From: a virus
IMG/VR virus record: IMGVR_UViG_3300042691_026259
Location: 1 to 27,900 of that record
Reading direction: 5' to 3' (one strand)
Length of the DNA: 27,900 nucleotides
Part shown: positions 9,931 through 17,835 of the stretch, piece by piece
Position numbering within the stretch: position 1 is the first letter of the stretch
Layout of the letters: each line of letters starts with the position of its first letter
Position numbers and translations under genes: made by a program
Notes under the pieces: generated by a model
Told to the model about the DNA's origin: nothing
The model's database searches: none
What the model saw: only the letters and a program-made list of their open reading frames with translations

Positions 9931-12900
9931 ATGGCCAATGAAAACGTAGTAGTAAATATAACTGCTACTAGCGATTTTTCAAATCTTATTACAGATGTTA
10001 ATAGGGTGTCTGCCTCATTGGCTAAATTGCAAAGAGATCTGATAACTTCAGATAAAGCAATTGGAAAAAATGTACAAAAATTAAATGCAGATTTTGCTAA
10101 TGCTTTAACTTCTTCTGGACAATTTTCTAAATACTTTGTAAGCTTAACTTCTGGTGCTGAAAAATTTGGTCAAAGCCTAGATAGTGGAAGGCTTAAACTA
10201 AGAGATTATTTCTCTACATTAAGAACTCATTTTACTGAACAAAAAAGTTTAATATCTGATTTAGCAAAACAACAGGTTCAGTTACAAAATGCTCTAATTC
10301 AGCCACTTGGTAAAAATGCTCAGGGTCTTATGCAATATAATATTATGGTTGCAAGAGGTCTTGATGAAGTAGCAAATAAAACTAAAATAGCACAAACTCA
10401 AGCTGCTATTATGAATAGAGTAATTCAGCAAGGTGCAAATCAATTAATTAACTGGGGTAAAAATACACAATGGGCTGGTAGACAGCTAACTGTTGGTTTA
10501 ACTGTACCTATTGCAGCATTTGGAAAAGCAGCAGCAGATGCATTTAGACTTGCAGATAAAGAGCTTGTAAGATTAACAAAGGTATATGGAGATCTTAGTG
10601 GAACAACTGCAAACGAATTAGGTAAAATTAGAGATGAAGTAGTTGCAACCGCAAAAGATCTTTCATCAAGCCTCGGCGCATCTTTTAAAGAAACATTAGC
10701 TCTATCTGCAGATATTGCTGCAACTGGAAAAACTGGAACTGAATTACTTGGATCAGTTCGAGAAACTACAAGGCTTGCAGTACTCGGTGAAGTTGATAGA
10801 CAAGAAGCAATGAAAGCTACTCTTGCAATTCAATCTGCATTTAAACAAAATACTGACGAACTTTCAGAATCTATTAACTTTTTAAACGCAGTTGAAAACC
10901 AAACATCTACAACACTTAATGATCTTGTAGAAGCTATTCCTAAAGCTGGACCAGTAATTAAGGGTCTAGGAGGAAGTATTCAAGATTTAGCACTATATAT
11001 AACAGCTATGCGTGAAGGTGGAATTAGTGCATCAGAAGGTGCTAATGCACTTAAATCTGGTCTTGCTTCTTTAATTAATCCAACCGATGTTGCTGTTGAT
11101 AAGTTTAAAACGTTTGGAATTGATCTTCTTGGTATGGTTCAAAAAAATGCAGGTAATACAACTGCATTACTACTTGACATGCAAGCAGCACTAGACAGAT
11201 TAGATCCATTACAAAAACAACAAGCAATAGAACAGCTTTTTGGTAAATTCCAGTTTTCAAGACTAAATGCTTTATTTAATAACTTAGGAAAAGAAGGAAG
11301 CCAAACATTAAAAGTTTTAGACTTAATGAAAGCTTCTACTGCAGAGCTTGGAGCAGTGGCTGACCGAGAGTTAGCTATGGTTACAGAGTCGGCATCTGGA
11401 AGATATGCTAGAGCAATTGAAAAATTAAAAGCTGATTTGGCTGGTGTTGGAGAATCATTTTTAGGAATTGCAACAAAAATAATTAATGTTATTGATAAAT
11501 TTGTTAACTTCGTAGGCGGACTGCCAGATCCAATTAAAAAAGTTATGGGCTTGGCTGCAGGAATAACTGCTATTGCTGGTCCAATAATCATGCTCACTGG
11601 TGTTCTTGGAAACTTCTTTGGGTATATTATTAAAGGAGTTTCACATTTTAGAGCATTATTTAAAGGTGCCGAAGGATGGAAATTATTAACCCCAGAAATA
11701 CTTGCTGCAAATGCAGCGGCTAATCAAATAGAAGATTCATTTTATTCTGATGCAAAAGCAGCTGATGTATTAAGAAATGCAATACAAAATCTTATTAATG
11801 AATATTCTATATTAGAAAATAAAGCACAATCTGGAGCACTTTCGCTGTCTGATATAGTAACAACAACTGCAGGAAATCCTTTAGTAATTGGCCCAAGAGA
11901 AGTAAATCCACAACATCCTTTAGCTGGCGAATATCAAACAAGAGCAAGTTCTCATATGAACCCAGTCGCTGGAATGACTAGAGAACAAAGAGCTTCTCAA
12001 ACAATTTTAGGAATGGTTCCTAGCGCAATTCCAGTTAATCGCTTAATTGGTCCAAATCCAATGATATTGACAGAAAAAGATTTGCCAAGAATTGAAGGAG
12101 TAACTTCATTTACCAGATCTACTGCAAAGGGAACATTTAGTACATCTGCTGGAGTACTAGCTCCAGAAGTAGCAAAGTGGCATGCCATGACAGCATCACT
12201 TGCAATGATGTCTAAAAAAGAAATTGCAGATTTAAAAAAGAGTATAGCGCTTACTGGTGTTGCAACAACAGAATTTATGGATAAGTTTGATGATGTTTTA
12301 CCAGCAGTTTCTAAAATTACTGATAATGGTGCAAGAATGTCTGCTGCTATTGTTGCTGAATTGCAAGCAGGTAAAATTACAGCTCAAACAGCAAAAGAAA
12401 AAATTATTGCTTTAAATTTTCAAATTGAAGCAATGCTTGCAGAAGCTGTAACAGATGTTGCAGCAGCTAGAGGATTAACAGTAGATCTAAGGACAGTTCC
12501 TTTAACAAGACAGCCAGCCACAAACGTCGTAACTGGTGAATCTAATATGAGACAAATGTTTAGGGGAGAAAATCAAAAATTTTTAGAAGAGCTTGGAGAT
12601 GTTTTAGGAGTTAGAACTTCTGGTGCTGGATATAATATTGAAACAACTAGACCAAAAAGATTAAACCAAGGTGGGTACATATATACAGCAAATGATGGAA
12701 GCATAGTTCCTGGTCCAAATGTAAATGCAGATGTTGTTCCAGCTATGCTAACTCCTGGAGAATTTGTTATAAATAGAGAAGCGACAGCAGCAAATCTTCC
12801 TTTACTAATTGCAATTAATGGTGGATTAGGTTCTGCTGGTCCAAATAAGTTTTTGGGGGGTAGAGTATCTGGTCTAGCTTCTAGAGCTAGAGATGCTGTT

Positions 12901-15900
12901 AGATCAATATTTGGAGTAAAAGCCAAAGGACCAGAAGCAAGCGCATTCCTTCAACAAATAGATGATATTCAAGATCCAATTTTAAAGGCACAATATATTG
13001 ATATTGCAAAAAAATATTCTAGTAAACTAACAAGATCAAAAAAAGATCCTAGTCTTTACTCTCCAGTTGCTCAAACTGTTCAAAAAAAGAATATAGAAGA
13101 TTTAAATAGAGCATTTGAGGATGCTGGATTAAATCCATTACCTTATGCCCCTGGAAGACATGCCACTCATTTAACTGTTAGCAAAAAATTAGGACGAGGT
13201 AAAACTCTAGTTAGTGGTTATACAGTAGACTACACTGCAGCATCAAACTTAGCTGCAAATAGAAATTCGCTCAGGCCAATTGATTTAATAACAAAAGATT
13301 TAATACAAGTTCCTGGTGTAAATAAATATGAAAGAATTTTACGTGCTGCTGGAATTCCAAAAGACAAGTGGGACTTAGCAGAAAAAGATATAGACCTTGC
13401 AATTAAAAATTATTTTGAGGAGCAGGCACAAAGAAGGGGAACAACAGTTGCTGGACTTCCAACCATAGGTGATAGACCAGAATCTGGAGCAGCGTTCACA
13501 TTTACAAAAGATATTATTCCAAGAATTGAATCTATTCTTCCAAAATATAATGATGCTGCATTATTTATGCCATCGTATAAAGCTCTTAAGGAAAATAAAA
13601 CATTAAGAGCTGCAAGAAGGAATAAGGGCGGAATGATTTATATGAATTCTGGTGGCGTGGTACCAGGATATAATCGTGGCGGCGGAATTGCAAGAAAAGG
13701 TAGAAAATATTACGGAGCAGTACAACCAAATGCTATATTCTATGCCAACCTAATTAGGAGAAATAAAGGAATTGCTGATAAGTCTGTAGTTCCAAAATCA
13801 TTCTTGCTGCAAAGGCTGGGTGCTAGATACCACTATAGCGAAAAAGATAAAGGATATGTTGTTACATCTCTGCCAACAAATCCTAATTTGAGAGTATTTT
13901 CAGACCTTGGATTAAGTTCTGCTGGCGAAAGAGTTTTGTATGGCAGTATGATAGATCGTATTTTAAACTCAAGGTCACAGGGAATGGATGCTCGTGGCAA
14001 GCGTGGGTTCTCTTTGGAATCAGATGGCCAAGATATGTGGCAGCATGCTTTATTAAGAGCTAAAAATTCTACATCTCTTTCCCCAGAAGATAAAGCTATT
14101 TTAGATTCACTTTATGATAAGGCTTCTAGAACAATGAATAACACAATGCCCAAGGCATTGGAAGAACAGCTTTTTGATTCAACATCGCATTTCTCTGACA
14201 TGCAATCATTATTTAGAAATCCAAAAACTCAATATAAAATGGGTGGAAAAATAAAAGGATATAACAGAGGCGGAAAGGTTACAGGTTATAACAAAAGAGC
14301 ATTACCTAGATATGCAGGCGGAGGAAAAGTATCAGGAGTTCAATATAAAAATGCTGGAGGAATGATAGCTTCTCTGCTTTTGTCTCAATTAGGATATAGT
14401 GTTGGGTCTTCATTAGGACAAAAGGCTGGCGGAGGCACTGGGCAAATGGTTGGCGGATCACTCGGTAGCATTTTACCATTTATGCTAATGGGTGGAATTG
14501 GTGGCAAAGACATAAACACTAAATATGAAAAGTCTATATTTGCTGGTAGCAAATTTGGACAATCTATGCTTACGCAAGCAACATCTGGAAGCAAACTCGC
14601 AGGTGCAATGTCTAAGGTAGGGCTTGCGCTTACCAGATTCAATCTAGCTGCAAGTGCTACTGTAGCTGTTGCTGGAGGACTAATAAAAGTTTATAAAGAT
14701 CATATAGAGTCCAATAAAAGATTAGCTGATTCATATGGGTTAACAGAAGAGAGAGCAAAAAATCTTAAATTAGAATATGTAGATTATATTGATGTATTAA
14801 GATCATCAATAAAAACAATGGAAGGTGCAAGAACAAGAAATAGATTAATTTTTGAAAGCATGGCTGCTGCAAATAGTCCAGTTAGTTTAACAATTAAACA
14901 GTATAAGGATCTAAGAAAAGAAATTAAGCAGACTATGCAAACAGAAATTGATATGATAAATAATGCAAAGCAGTCTGATCTTTCTGATATAGCAGTAAGA
15001 TTAAAAATTCAATTCATGGCTGCTGGTGCTTCTGCAGAAGAGGCAAATAGAAAAATTGCTGTATTATTTTCGCTAACAGAATACAGTGAGTTTGCACAAA
15101 AAGTTACATTGGCAAATAGAGAATTTATGAATTTAAAAACTGCTACAGATGTTGCAGTAAAAGCTTTTAAAAACTTTAGAGAGGCAACAAAAGAAAGATT
15201 ACCAGCAGAGACTCAACTAAGAGCATTTAATACAGCACTTCAAGCAACTGATAATGCTATTGATCAAATTTTAGCAAAAAATAAAAAAGATGGAGAAAAC
15301 CAACAAGAAAGATATAAAGCAGAGCTTGAAATACTAAATGAACTTAAGTCTAAAAAGCTTGATGAAGTGGAACTTTCTAATGAGCTAAAGGCATCGCTAT
15401 CAGCCCAAGACACAACTTTAATTGGAATTATTGGTAGATATGAAACTGTAGTTTCTTTATGGCAAAAAATACAAATTGCGGCAAAGGGTTATACTGGAGA
15501 CTTAAAAGGTTTAGATCCAACTGCTGTAAACGCTTTATATAATTTAGTTGCTGCAGTTGCAGACGAAACGGCCAGAAGTACCTCAGCTCAAGGTGGCTTG
15601 TTATTTAAAGAGTATAGAGAATTAACAAGATTAGAAAAAACTAGAAAAGATTTAATAGCAGCAACCAAAGGTCAAACAGCAGCACAAGAAATTAATTCTA
15701 GAAAAAGAATTGAAGCTCTTCAAAAAGAAATAGAAAAAATTAATGAGGCCGCAGAAGCCAGACAAAAAGCATTACAGGAAGAGCAAGAAGATGAAGATTA
15801 TTTAATTCAAATACAAAAGAAAAAGATTGAATATCAGGATGCCCTTGCTGCAGGAGATATGTCTAGGGCAGCCCAAGCTCAATTAGATATACAGTCTCTT

Positions 15901-17835
15901 ACAAATCAACAACAAAGAACCCTTGCATCAAGAGCAATAGAAGAAAAAAGACAAAGAGACATTGCTCCTCTACAATCTGAAATTGATAGAATAAATAAGG
16001 CTAATCAAGATCTTGCTGATAAGGCTGCGCTTGCTGCAGATGGTATAGATAAACTTAATGAAAAAATACAGCAGCTAAGAGATAAAATTGATATGGTTAA
16101 CGGCGCTCTTACTGATTATAGAGTTGCAGTTCTTACTGGACAAAACCCTGAACAAAGAAAAGAAGAAGCGGCAGCAGTTTTAAGAGCATTAGGAATTAAT
16201 CCAAAATCTATTGATCCTGAAGCATTTAAAGATAGAAAGAGGGCTCCTGGACCGACAGAGCTAAGAGCTGCATCTAAATCACAAAAGGACGTAGTTGCAA
16301 CAGCAGATGAAATATTGAATAAAATATTTGGTCAAAAAGTAGATAAAGTAGTTATGGAAGCCGCAGAAGTATATATCACAGAAAGTAAGAGCGGCACTTC
16401 AAAAGCACCTAAAACCTTTACTGAGGAACAGTTAAAAAGATCTGGAATGGGTCCTGGTCAAAGAGTAACTAATCAAACTCTTAGCGCTTTAGTAAAAAAT
16501 GAAAAATTAGAGTCTGGGGAAATATTTGAAATAAGAGGGGTCAGATATAAAGTACTTAATGACTATAGAAATGCTTTCCCAACTGCAGAAAAACTTGCTA
16601 TGGGTGGATTTGTTTCTGGTCCTGGAACTCCTACTTCAGATTCTATTCCAGCGATGCTTTCAAATGGTGAATATGTTATAAATGCAAAATCTGTAAATCA
16701 AGTTGGTGTTCCATTCCTTGACAAAATTAATGGAATGAAAGATGGCGGACTTGTTGATTCTATATTAAATTTACCTAGTGGAAAACGCCGTCCAATATTT
16801 CAAAAAGAAACTTGGGAGCCGACAGCAAATTTCTTTGGCTTGCCAGAAATGGGAAGAACATTTCAAGATACTCTTAAATATGGAGGAGGAACTTCTTCAC
16901 CATTTGGCCAATTAGCCATAATGATTGCAAGAGCCCTAGGAGCAGACACCAAATCAAGCTACTCTGATCAATTAATTACATCCTTAGGCCTCCTTCCAGG
17001 TGTTGGAAAACCACTTGGTTTAGGCGCTAAAGGTTTACTTAAAACAACAGGTAAAAAACTTGAAGCATTATCACTTATGAGAAGTGGTGTACACAGAAGC
17101 TATAACCCAAATATAAAAACTATGCACCCACTTATGGCACCAGTTGAATCTGCTCAAGTAATGGGTCCAGGGACATATTTTGCAGACGATATAATGTATT
17201 CAGAGCTTTATAGACAATATGGGCCACATGCCTATAAGATTCAGGCTGCTTCGCTAATGGATTGGATAAAAATTTTAAAAACAAAAGGTTTTGCAGACTA
17301 CCAAGATCTTGTAAGGTCAGCAAGTAAATATAATGCAGGACTCGGCCCATCAGAAAGTGCTAATGCGATTAATCTTAAGAAAATTCTTGACGGAGCATAT
17401 TGGGACAATCCAGCTATTCAAGGTTTAATGAGAGAGGGATATATCGGATATAGACCCACATCATACAAAGGTGAGAAGAAGGATGCATTTGTAAGCTGGT
17501 TAGTTGGAACTGGAAGATTTAACTTAAAAAAACTTGCTAGTGGTGGATATGTCAATTCTCCAAAGTTTCATAATTGGAATGGCACAGTTCCTGGACCATA
17601 TAATCAAGAAATTTCTGCAACATTAAAAGCTGGAACTGAAGGGGTATATCAAAATAATTATATATCATCTCTCAAAGAAAAAGCACAAGGAAATACCTAT
17701 ATAAACCAGCCAAAGATTGAAGTACATGCAGCGCCTGGTATGGATGAAGCAATGCTTGCTGATCTTGTTCTTAAGAAATTTAATCAACAAAATGATAAAA
17801 TAGCAGCTGCACAAGGAAGATCGGTGGTAAGATAA
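9931..17835 (+). CDS. Tape measure protein with modular inserted domains
   Basis: A 2634-residue protein directly after the chaperone pair; it sets tail length and helps DNA entry. Residues about 190-530 match the TP901/PhageMin_Tail core (ADAFRLADKELVRLTKVYGD, AIPKAGPVIKGLGGSIQDLA, LQKQQAIEQLFGKFQFSRL). Hydrophobic segments lie near 540-570 and 1472-1525 (Gly-zipper-like) and 1557-1590. A charged coiled coil covers about 1890-2070. Gly-Gly turn modules recur, e.g. VPAMLTPGEFVIN (936-948) and IPAMLSNGEYVIN (2239-2251), plus GG motifs near 914, 1233, 1432 and 2538. Between them sit unknown domains (about 970-1230 and 1255-1430) and a PARP/ART-like domain (about 2377-2535). No lytic-transglycosylase or peptidase motif was seen. 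AGGGAG (9911-9916) is the only upstream ribosome-like site, 14 nt away. Confidence 0.92.
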   Translation: MANENVVVNITATSDFSNLITDVNRVSASLAKLQRDLITSDKAIGKNVQKLNADFANALTSSGQFSKYFVSLTSGAEKFGQSLDSGRLKLRDYFSTLRTHFTEQKSLISDLAKQQVQLQNALIQPLGKNAQGLMQYNIMVARGLDEVANKTKIAQTQAAIMNRVIQQGANQLINWGKNTQWAGRQLTVGLTVPIAAFGKAAADAFRLADKELVRLTKVYGDLSGTTANELGKIRDEVVATAKDLSSSLGASFKETLALSADIAATGKTGTELLGSVRETTRLAVLGEVDRQEAMKATLAIQSAFKQNTDELSESINFLNAVENQTSTTLNDLVEAIPKAGPVIKGLGGSIQDLALYITAMREGGISASEGANALKSGLASLINPTDVAVDKFKTFGIDLLGMVQKNAGNTTALLLDMQAALDRLDPLQKQQAIEQLFGKFQFSRLNALFNNLGKEGSQTLKVLDLMKASTAELGAVADRELAMVTESASGRYARAIEKLKADLAGVGESFLGIATKIINVIDKFVNFVGGLPDPIKKVMGLAAGITAIAGPIIMLTGVLGNFFGYIIKGVSHFRALFKGAEGWKLLTPEILAANAAANQIEDSFYSDAKAADVLRNAIQNLINEYSILENKAQSGALSLSDIVTTTAGNPLVIGPREVNPQHPLAGEYQTRASSHMNPVAGMTREQRASQTILGMVPSAIPVNRLIGPNPMILTEKDLPRIEGVTSFTRSTAKGTFSTSAGVLAPEVAKWHAMTASLAMMSKKEIADLKKSIALTGVATTEFMDKFDDVLPAVSKITDNGARMSAAIVAELQAGKITAQTAKEKIIALNFQIEAMLAEAVTDVAAARGLTVDLRTVPLTRQPATNVVTGESNMRQMFRGENQKFLEELGDVLGVRTSGAGYNIETTRPKRLNQGGYIYTANDGSIVPGPNVNADVVPAMLTPGEFVINREATAANLPLLIAINGGLGSAGPNKFLGGRVSGLASRARDAVRSIFGVKAKGPEASAFLQQIDDIQDPILKAQYIDIAKKYSSKLTRSKKDPSLYSPVAQTVQKKNIEDLNRAFEDAGLNPLPYAPGRHATHLTVSKKLGRGKTLVSGYTVDYTAASNLAANRNSLRPIDLITKDLIQVPGVNKYERILRAAGIPKDKWDLAEKDIDLAIKNYFEEQAQRRGTTVAGLPTIGDRPESGAAFTFTKDIIPRIESILPKYNDAALFMPSYKALKENKTLRAARRNKGGMIYMNSGGVVPGYNRGGGIARKGRKYYGAVQPNAIFYANLIRRNKGIADKSVVPKSFLLQRLGARYHYSEKDKGYVVTSLPTNPNLRVFSDLGLSSAGERVLYGSMIDRILNSRSQGMDARGKRGFSLESDGQDMWQHALLRAKNSTSLSPEDKAILDSLYDKASRTMNNTMPKALEEQLFDSTSHFSDMQSLFRNPKTQYKMGGKIKGYNRGGKVTGYNKRALPRYAGGGKVSGVQYKNAGGMIASLLLSQLGYSVGSSLGQKAGGGTGQMVGGSLGSILPFMLMGGIGGKDINTKYEKSIFAGSKFGQSMLTQATSGSKLAGAMSKVGLALTRFNLAASATVAVAGGLIKVYKDHIESNKRLADSYGLTEERAKNLKLEYVDYIDVLRSSIKTMEGARTRNRLIFESMAAANSPVSLTIKQYKDLRKEIKQTMQTEIDMINNAKQSDLSDIAVRLKIQFMAAGASAEEANRKIAVLFSLTEYSEFAQKVTLANREFMNLKTATDVAVKAFKNFREATKERLPAETQLRAFNTALQATDNAIDQILAKNKKDGENQQERYKAELEILNELKSKKLDEVELSNELKASLSAQDTTLIGIIGRYETVVSLWQKIQIAAKGYTGDLKGLDPTAVNALYNLVAAVADETARSTSAQGGLLFKEYRELTRLEKTRKDLIAATKGQTAAQEINSRKRIEALQKEIEKINEAAEARQKALQEEQEDEDYLIQIQKKKIEYQDALAAGDMSRAAQAQLDIQSLTNQQQRTLASRAIEEKRQRDIAPLQSEIDRINKANQDLADKAALAADGIDKLNEKIQQLRDKIDMVNGALTDYRVAVLTGQNPEQRKEEAAAVLRALGINPKSIDPEAFKDRKRAPGPTELRAASKSQKDVVATADEILNKIFGQKVDKVVMEAAEVYITESKSGTSKAPKTFTEEQLKRSGMGPGQRVTNQTLSALVKNEKLESGEIFEIRGVRYKVLNDYRNAFPTAEKLAMGGFVSGPGTPTSDSIPAMLSNGEYVINAKSVNQVGVPFLDKINGMKDGGLVDSILNLPSGKRRPIFQKETWEPTANFFGLPEMGRTFQDTLKYGGGTSSPFGQLAIMIARALGADTKSSYSDQLITSLGLLPGVGKPLGLGAKGLLKTTGKKLEALSLMRSGVHRSYNPNIKTMHPLMAPVESAQVMGPGTYFADDIMYSELYRQYGPHAYKIQAASLMDWIKILKTKGFADYQDLVRSASKYNAGLGPSESANAINLKKILDGAYWDNPAIQGLMREGYIGYRPTSYKGEKKDAFVSWLVGTGRFNLKKLASGGYVNSPKFHNWNGTVPGPYNQEISATLKAGTEGVYQNNYISSLKEKAQGNTYINQPKIEVHAAPGMDEAMLADLVLKKFNQQNDKIAAAQGRSVVR
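17059..17535 (+). other. ADP-ribosyltransferase (PARP/ART-PolyVal)-like domain inside tape measure
   Basis: Residues about 2377-2535 of the tape measure. Visible elements in order: HRS at 2388-2390 (candidate NAD-site His/Arg strand); GPGTYFADD at 2412-2420 followed by YSELY, closely like the PARP signature G-x-G-x-Y-F-A-D...Y; AYKIQ then MDW, as the next ART strand; and EGYIGYRP (2502-2509) with KKDAFVSWLVGTGRFNLKKL near 2516-2535, as the closing strands. The expected catalytic Glu in the last strand is not evident, so activity is uncertain. It is bounded by KDGG and ASGG motifs. Confidence 0.45.

Follow-up and report, generated by a model that had tools for sequence, protein, structure and literature searches.

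The window analysed, a virus record of 27.9 kb with a low G+C content (about 35%), contains a run of siphovirus structural genes encoding a portal, a head maturation protease, a head protein, a tape measure protein (TMP), and minor tail proteins. TMPs set the length of the phage tail, occupy the tail tube, and are discharged at infection, entering the bacterium together with the DNA; in some siphoviruses, the C-terminal part is placed close to the tip and exits early. The TMP gene (9931–17835; this and all other features of the window lie on the plus strand) is an intact ORF of 2634 aa, which was assigned by profile matches to PHROG_10030 (E = 2.8e-116) and PhageMin_Tail (PF10145; E = 2e-29) and by the tail gene order, with minor tail proteins downstream. 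Across the greater part of residues 1–956, this TMP is 59–66% identical to the TMPs of many IMG/VR contigs, and its first 600–680 residues are ~31–36% identical to TMPs from phages of Streptomyces and other actinobacteria. Because these last relatives come from actinobacterial phages, the virus probably infects actinobacteria.

Alignment with related TMPs revealed an inserted segment of ~265 aa (residues 2272–2537; 16744–17541) between GG-containing linkers (GGLVDS ... ASGGYV), which is absent from all ten TMPs aligned. As a result of this insertion, the tail beyond the conserved SNGEYVINA motif measures about 380 aa, compared with 89–105 aa in the ten relatives. A conserved C-terminal tail (ASGGYVNSPKFHNWNGTVPGPY...; 17536–17832) shared by 12 contigs comes next; in related TMPs, it follows ADP-ribosyltransferase (ART)-like or other modules. 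Two further variable regions were recognized in the same protein. The first, at residues 986–1240 (12886–13650), is 59% shared with the TMPs of contigs L072 and L074, did not turn up in the remaining TMPs of the sample, and has no Pfam match. The second, at residues 1256–1450 (13696–14280; FLLQRLGARYHYS), has weak relatives in L048, L050, L007, and L040 and contains SFLLQRLGARYHYS, which by eye resembles FFLQRFGKPFHYS of the L074 TMP and may be another shared cargo module. A reading of HATHLTVS (TMP residue 1077) as a 2H-phosphoesterase motif was dropped, no second HxT motif being seen.

Residues 2377–2535 of the insertion, to which the first-pass annotation had assigned a PARP/ART-like domain, are translated in frame from 17059 to 17535, and all of the residues named in that annotation are present and in place. 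The motif block, ESAQVMGPGTYFADDIMYSELY (residues 2406–2427; 17146–17211), would span strand 2 and the following helix of an ART-PolyVal-like domain and comprises E2406-S-A-Q, GPGTYFADD (2412–2420) with Y2416 as the candidate catalytic Tyr of the GxGxY motif, and YSELY (2423–2427), which ends in the helix Tyr, Y2427. H2388 (17092–17094) lies 24 residues upstream of GxG, on a candidate strand 1, and is the candidate catalytic His; the usual HG[ST] motif here reads HR (HRS at 2388). Farther downstream, YKIQAASLMDW (2435–2445; 17233–17265), with YKIQ at 2435 and MDW at 2443–2445, is a candidate strand 3, its by-eye likeness to the ART-PolyVal LYxV...LDW not being significant; GYIGY is found at 2503, DAFVSW at 2518–2523 (17482–17499), and NLKKL at 2531–2535. 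From alignments, DAFVSW is a candidate strand 5, and D2518 is the sole acidic residue directly before AFVSW. D2518, the nearest acidic residue, is a candidate for the third catalytic position, although it does not align with a conserved Asp of ART-PolyVal, and its part there is unproven; no acidic residue of the segment could be aligned as the third catalytic one. Immediately upstream of the domain lies a Gly-rich hydrophobic stretch, LITSLGLLPGVGKPLGLGAKGLL (residues 2348–2370; 16972–17040), which reads as glycine-zipper-like when compared with the glycine zippers described in PMC10240207.

To put a frequency on the motif, the pattern GxGxYFADx7Y was searched in viral contigs among nonredundant ORFs of at least 100 aa; the shorter GxGxYFADD retrieves genuine ART-PolyVal and PARP domains in such a scan. 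At least 104 ORFs contained the calibration pattern, one of them belonging to this phage. Among the matches listed, 97 of the 103 other ORFs were ART-like and six appeared to be chance matches, the label resting on the author's inspection rather than on curation and, for ORFs without HG, on visible PARP/MuF-type or truncated ART-PolyVal sequence. HG[STGAP] was found upstream in 91 of the same 103 ORFs, and the modal spacing from HG[ST] to GxG was 24 residues (53 of the 91 ART matches listed), identical to that of H2388. Members of the ART-PolyVal family PF18760 likewise share with the segment a His-to-GxG distance of exactly 24 residues and the preceding ExAQ. We made an HMM of our own out of 14 ART-PolyVal domains; against it, the segment scored 10.0–10.5 bits, a value exceeded in just 3 of 20,000 shuffles and higher than that of any of 4,523 windows from other proteins of related contigs. 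The signal is confined to the ESAQVMGPGTYFADD...YRQ block, whose flanking parts on both sides scored at shuffle level against the ART-PolyVal or HGS profiles (p = 0.70 and 0.90; 0.14 and 0.45; the HGS module is described below), and the likeness of the beta-3 region to ART-PolyVal did not rise above that of shuffles. Because the flanking parts match no better than shuffles, by-eye pairings outside the motif block (LDW, KGE...YVIF, and beta 3) carry no weight and were discarded as evidence.

Searches of the segment against Pfam, PHROGs, PDB sequences, and PADLOC returned no match, the sub-threshold rows being unrelated, so that the curated ART family match by which the first-pass annotation was to be checked did not materialize. 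PF18760 was not matched at E ≤ 10, either in an hmmscan of the segment or in a six-frame search of the record. The PARP catalytic domain (PF00644) gave no Pfam match, and there is no Glu at the strand-5 position as an H-Y-E triad would demand. The PARP-type part of the original description is not supported: with ExAQ..GxGxYFADD and His at −24, the segment is most likely ART-PolyVal-like, not PARP. The only relative found was a contig that matches over 13.9 kb at 99.99% identity and represents the same phage; nothing beyond it came up when the phage collection was searched by tblastn or when viral and genome contigs were scanned with peptide patterns, and a combined alignment (A1) used as query gave no confirmed relative. 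A single-sequence AlphaFold model of the segment (pLDDT 36) is uninformative on whether it has the split beta-sandwich of ARTs; an ART-like fold emerged only from the model of the HGS module of related TMPs. The broader claim of an ART-like domain thus finds support in motif, spacing, and context but not in the curated profile search or in direct fold prediction.

Context is provided by cargo in other TMPs of the family. A module here called HGS was present in 3 of 55 complete related TMPs fetched regardless of cargo, and further TMPs with it were found when the module itself was used as query; carriers include L036, L072, L076, and L084–L087, and none was found in genome contigs. A structural model built from seven TMP sequences only, with no annotated ART included, reached pLDDT 78.5 and pTM 0.79. 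In the viral structure library BFVD, its best match was an ART-PolyVal-like protein (E = 2.2e-5, probability 1.00), and seven matches were obtained at E ≤ 0.001, several of them named PolyVal ADP-ribosyltransferase, with modest TM-scores of 0.36–0.46. Nothing significant was found in the PDB, where the top TM-score among the matches listed belonged to rifampin ADP-ribosyltransferase (2hw2; probability 0.16). The case for an ART fold in the modelled HGS module is good but, because the TM-scores are modest, not certain. In L141/L087 and L146/L086, HGS modules are followed immediately by the conserved C-terminal tail, which likewise follows the present segment. ART-fold cargo in this TMP family is therefore supported independently of the segment, which raises the prior that the segment is itself an ART.

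Other cargo was seen in the same family. The L072 TMP combines CHAP and LysM domains, both recognized by Pfam, with the modelled ART-fold module, and the TMP of the window has its two further variable modules. The remaining cases were recognized by inspecting the sequences. HExxH motifs (HELIHVLG and AHEAVHAAD) occur at cargo positions in the L058 TMP (from 5120) and in L140 (3197–4006); their sequence suggests zinc proteases like those of polyvalent proteins. A further TMP segment of L072 (19502–20479; DALGYSDAHGGNLIINPIGKKAGAIDFGRIGD) bears a likeness to the loops for catalysis and metal binding found in protein-kinase-like enzymes. Segments with the look of other ART families (YFSTN..A..Y, GGKFFATDD, GGYWSLN..LYRADIP, and FHGGS) were noted in L072 (18731–19306), L145 (3224–4006), L147 (2885–4006), and L076 (11263–11949), none with a significant Pfam match. 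A shared preamble, roughly GDxLxAAMxPLxFxGxG, stands ahead of differing cargo in the TMPs of L072, L085, L141, L145, and L147 and recalls the segments that precede the toxin domain in polymorphic toxins. The preambles that introduce several different kinds of cargo are mutually related (scores of 62–162 versus about 28 in shuffles; p about 0.001); the Gly-rich stretch at residues 2348–2370 showed no significant homology to the preambles of other cargo modules.

Taken together, the segment is probably a divergent ART-fold domain of the ART-PolyVal kind, inserted as cargo into a siphovirus TMP at a point where the coiled body gives way to the C-terminal tail. The motif with its spacing and the insertion are direct features of this TMP, and the ART-fold module and other cargo in its relatives are supported by model and fold match; from these, we infer the ART fold of the present copy. 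Whether such a domain would act as an enzyme is a separate matter, on which the chances are about even. The segment possibly is catalytically inactive, since no third catalytic acidic residue aligns. The first-pass annotation was right that a catalytic Glu is not evident, but its suggestion of degeneracy does not follow from that alone: the missing Glu is not decisive because the reported catalytic triad of ART-PolyVal is His-Tyr-Asp (PMC5512222).

A variant of the same reading, a sub-case of it and not a competitor, is that the ART-fold domain has lost catalysis and serves to bind NAD/ADP-ribose or a host protein, or acts as a spacer or structural module. The replacement of HG by HR and the failure of any third acidic residue to align fit such a loss, and the HGS modules of other TMPs also vary at the usual Glu position. 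However, His and Tyr are both retained at canonical spacing, which drift would not favour, and absence of Glu is uninformative in a family reported to work without it (PMC5512222); we rate loss of catalysis a real prospect, a little short of an even chance. That the segment is not an ART at all, and the GxGxYFADD block a chance or convergent match in an unrelated inserted domain, is unlikely. Six of the 103 other pattern ORFs among the matches listed do look like chance, the flanks match ART profiles no better than shuffles, and the databases returned no profile match; against this, the His sits at the modal spacing, the segment tops every window from the related contigs, and an independent model places a predicted ART-fold module as cargo in the same TMP family. 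Least probable is that one of the muralytic or envelope-penetrating modules typical of TMPs (a TM4-like peptidoglycan hydrolase or CHAP/LysM) has been misread as an ART, for although such modules are known enzymatic parts of TMPs (PMC1796659) and the family member L072 has both CHAP and LysM, the segment itself gave no match to CHAP, NlpC/P60, lysozyme, or LysM.

If the segment is an ART-PolyVal-like cargo domain, the following course of infection may be envisaged. The TMP would run through the tail tube until its release at infection, with the domain held in an unfolded or extended state in the tail lumen and leaving near the front, along with the C-terminus. Refolding would then take place in the host membrane or across it, and the glycine-zipper-like stretch at 2348–2370 could aid the crossing; glycine zippers are required for translocation of the type VI secretion system effector Tde1 and are present in some TMP C-termini (PMC10240207). 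If NAD is used, the domain would bind NAD+ through H2388 and Y2416 as residues of the nicotinamide pocket and would either modify a host component or occupy NAD/ADP-ribose. Delivery of the domain into the host by the TMP is plausible, and this reading is strengthened because related TMPs carry several different cargo modules. More speculatively, and with the balance somewhat against it, the TMPs of this phage group could be exchangeable carriers akin to polymorphic toxins, in which a shared preamble and a common tail would frame varied effectors (several ART types, proteases, and a kinase-like domain) that reach the host before the DNA does; in the present case, the effector would be a domain that uses NAD and disarms or redirects the host.

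In the open-licence literature searched, no phage TMP was found to be described as containing an ART, which is weak evidence of novelty, and the surveys consulted on polyvalent proteins and on viral NAD/ADP-ribose functions do not mention tape measure proteins. Known already are virion-borne ARTs in phage heads (T4 Alt and MuF fusions) and in polyvalent proteins, as well as cell-wall hydrolases in TMPs. An ART-type effector in the tail ruler, if confirmed, would join the two themes of virion-borne ARTs and TMP enzymes and would offer siphoviruses a route for delivering intracellular effectors. It would also raise the physical question of how the tail lumen accommodates a beta-rich domain and whether that domain refolds after exit.

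Among the closest known systems is ART-PolyVal (PF18760), from the polyvalent proteins of phages and conjugative elements: the segment shares with it the His 24 residues before GxGxYFADD, the preceding ExAQ, the helix Tyr, and a place as a module within a large multidomain virion-associated protein, but it scores below the Pfam profile, has HR for HG, lacks the aligned Asp, and is housed in a TMP. The HGS module (L036, L072, L076, and L084–L087) resembles it as cargo of the same TMP family, with a modelled ART-PolyVal-like fold and, in the L086 and L087 copies, the same C-terminal tail behind it, whereas in sequence there is no significant similarity (−1.4 bits with the HGS HMM). T4 Alt and the MuF-fused ARTs are also virion-borne and injected (PMC5512222, PMC9503650), but from the head rather than in the tail ruler, and Alt is of the R-S-E type. 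The peptidoglycan hydrolase motif in the TMP of mycobacteriophage TM4 is likewise an extra enzymatic module in an actinophage TMP (PMC1796659), although its target is the cell wall and not NAD or anything intracellular. Finally, Sle1 and Tme of actinobacterial contractile injection systems pair a TMP-like carrier with variable C-terminal functional domains, and for Sle1, refolding outside after an unfolded or extended state in the lumen has been proposed (PMC13277306). Those are bacterial injection systems, for which PMC13277306 makes no mention of ADP-ribosylation, whereas the carrier here is the TMP of an infecting phage; if the proposed delivery is correct, it would be a phage-side counterpart to these TMP-like effectors.
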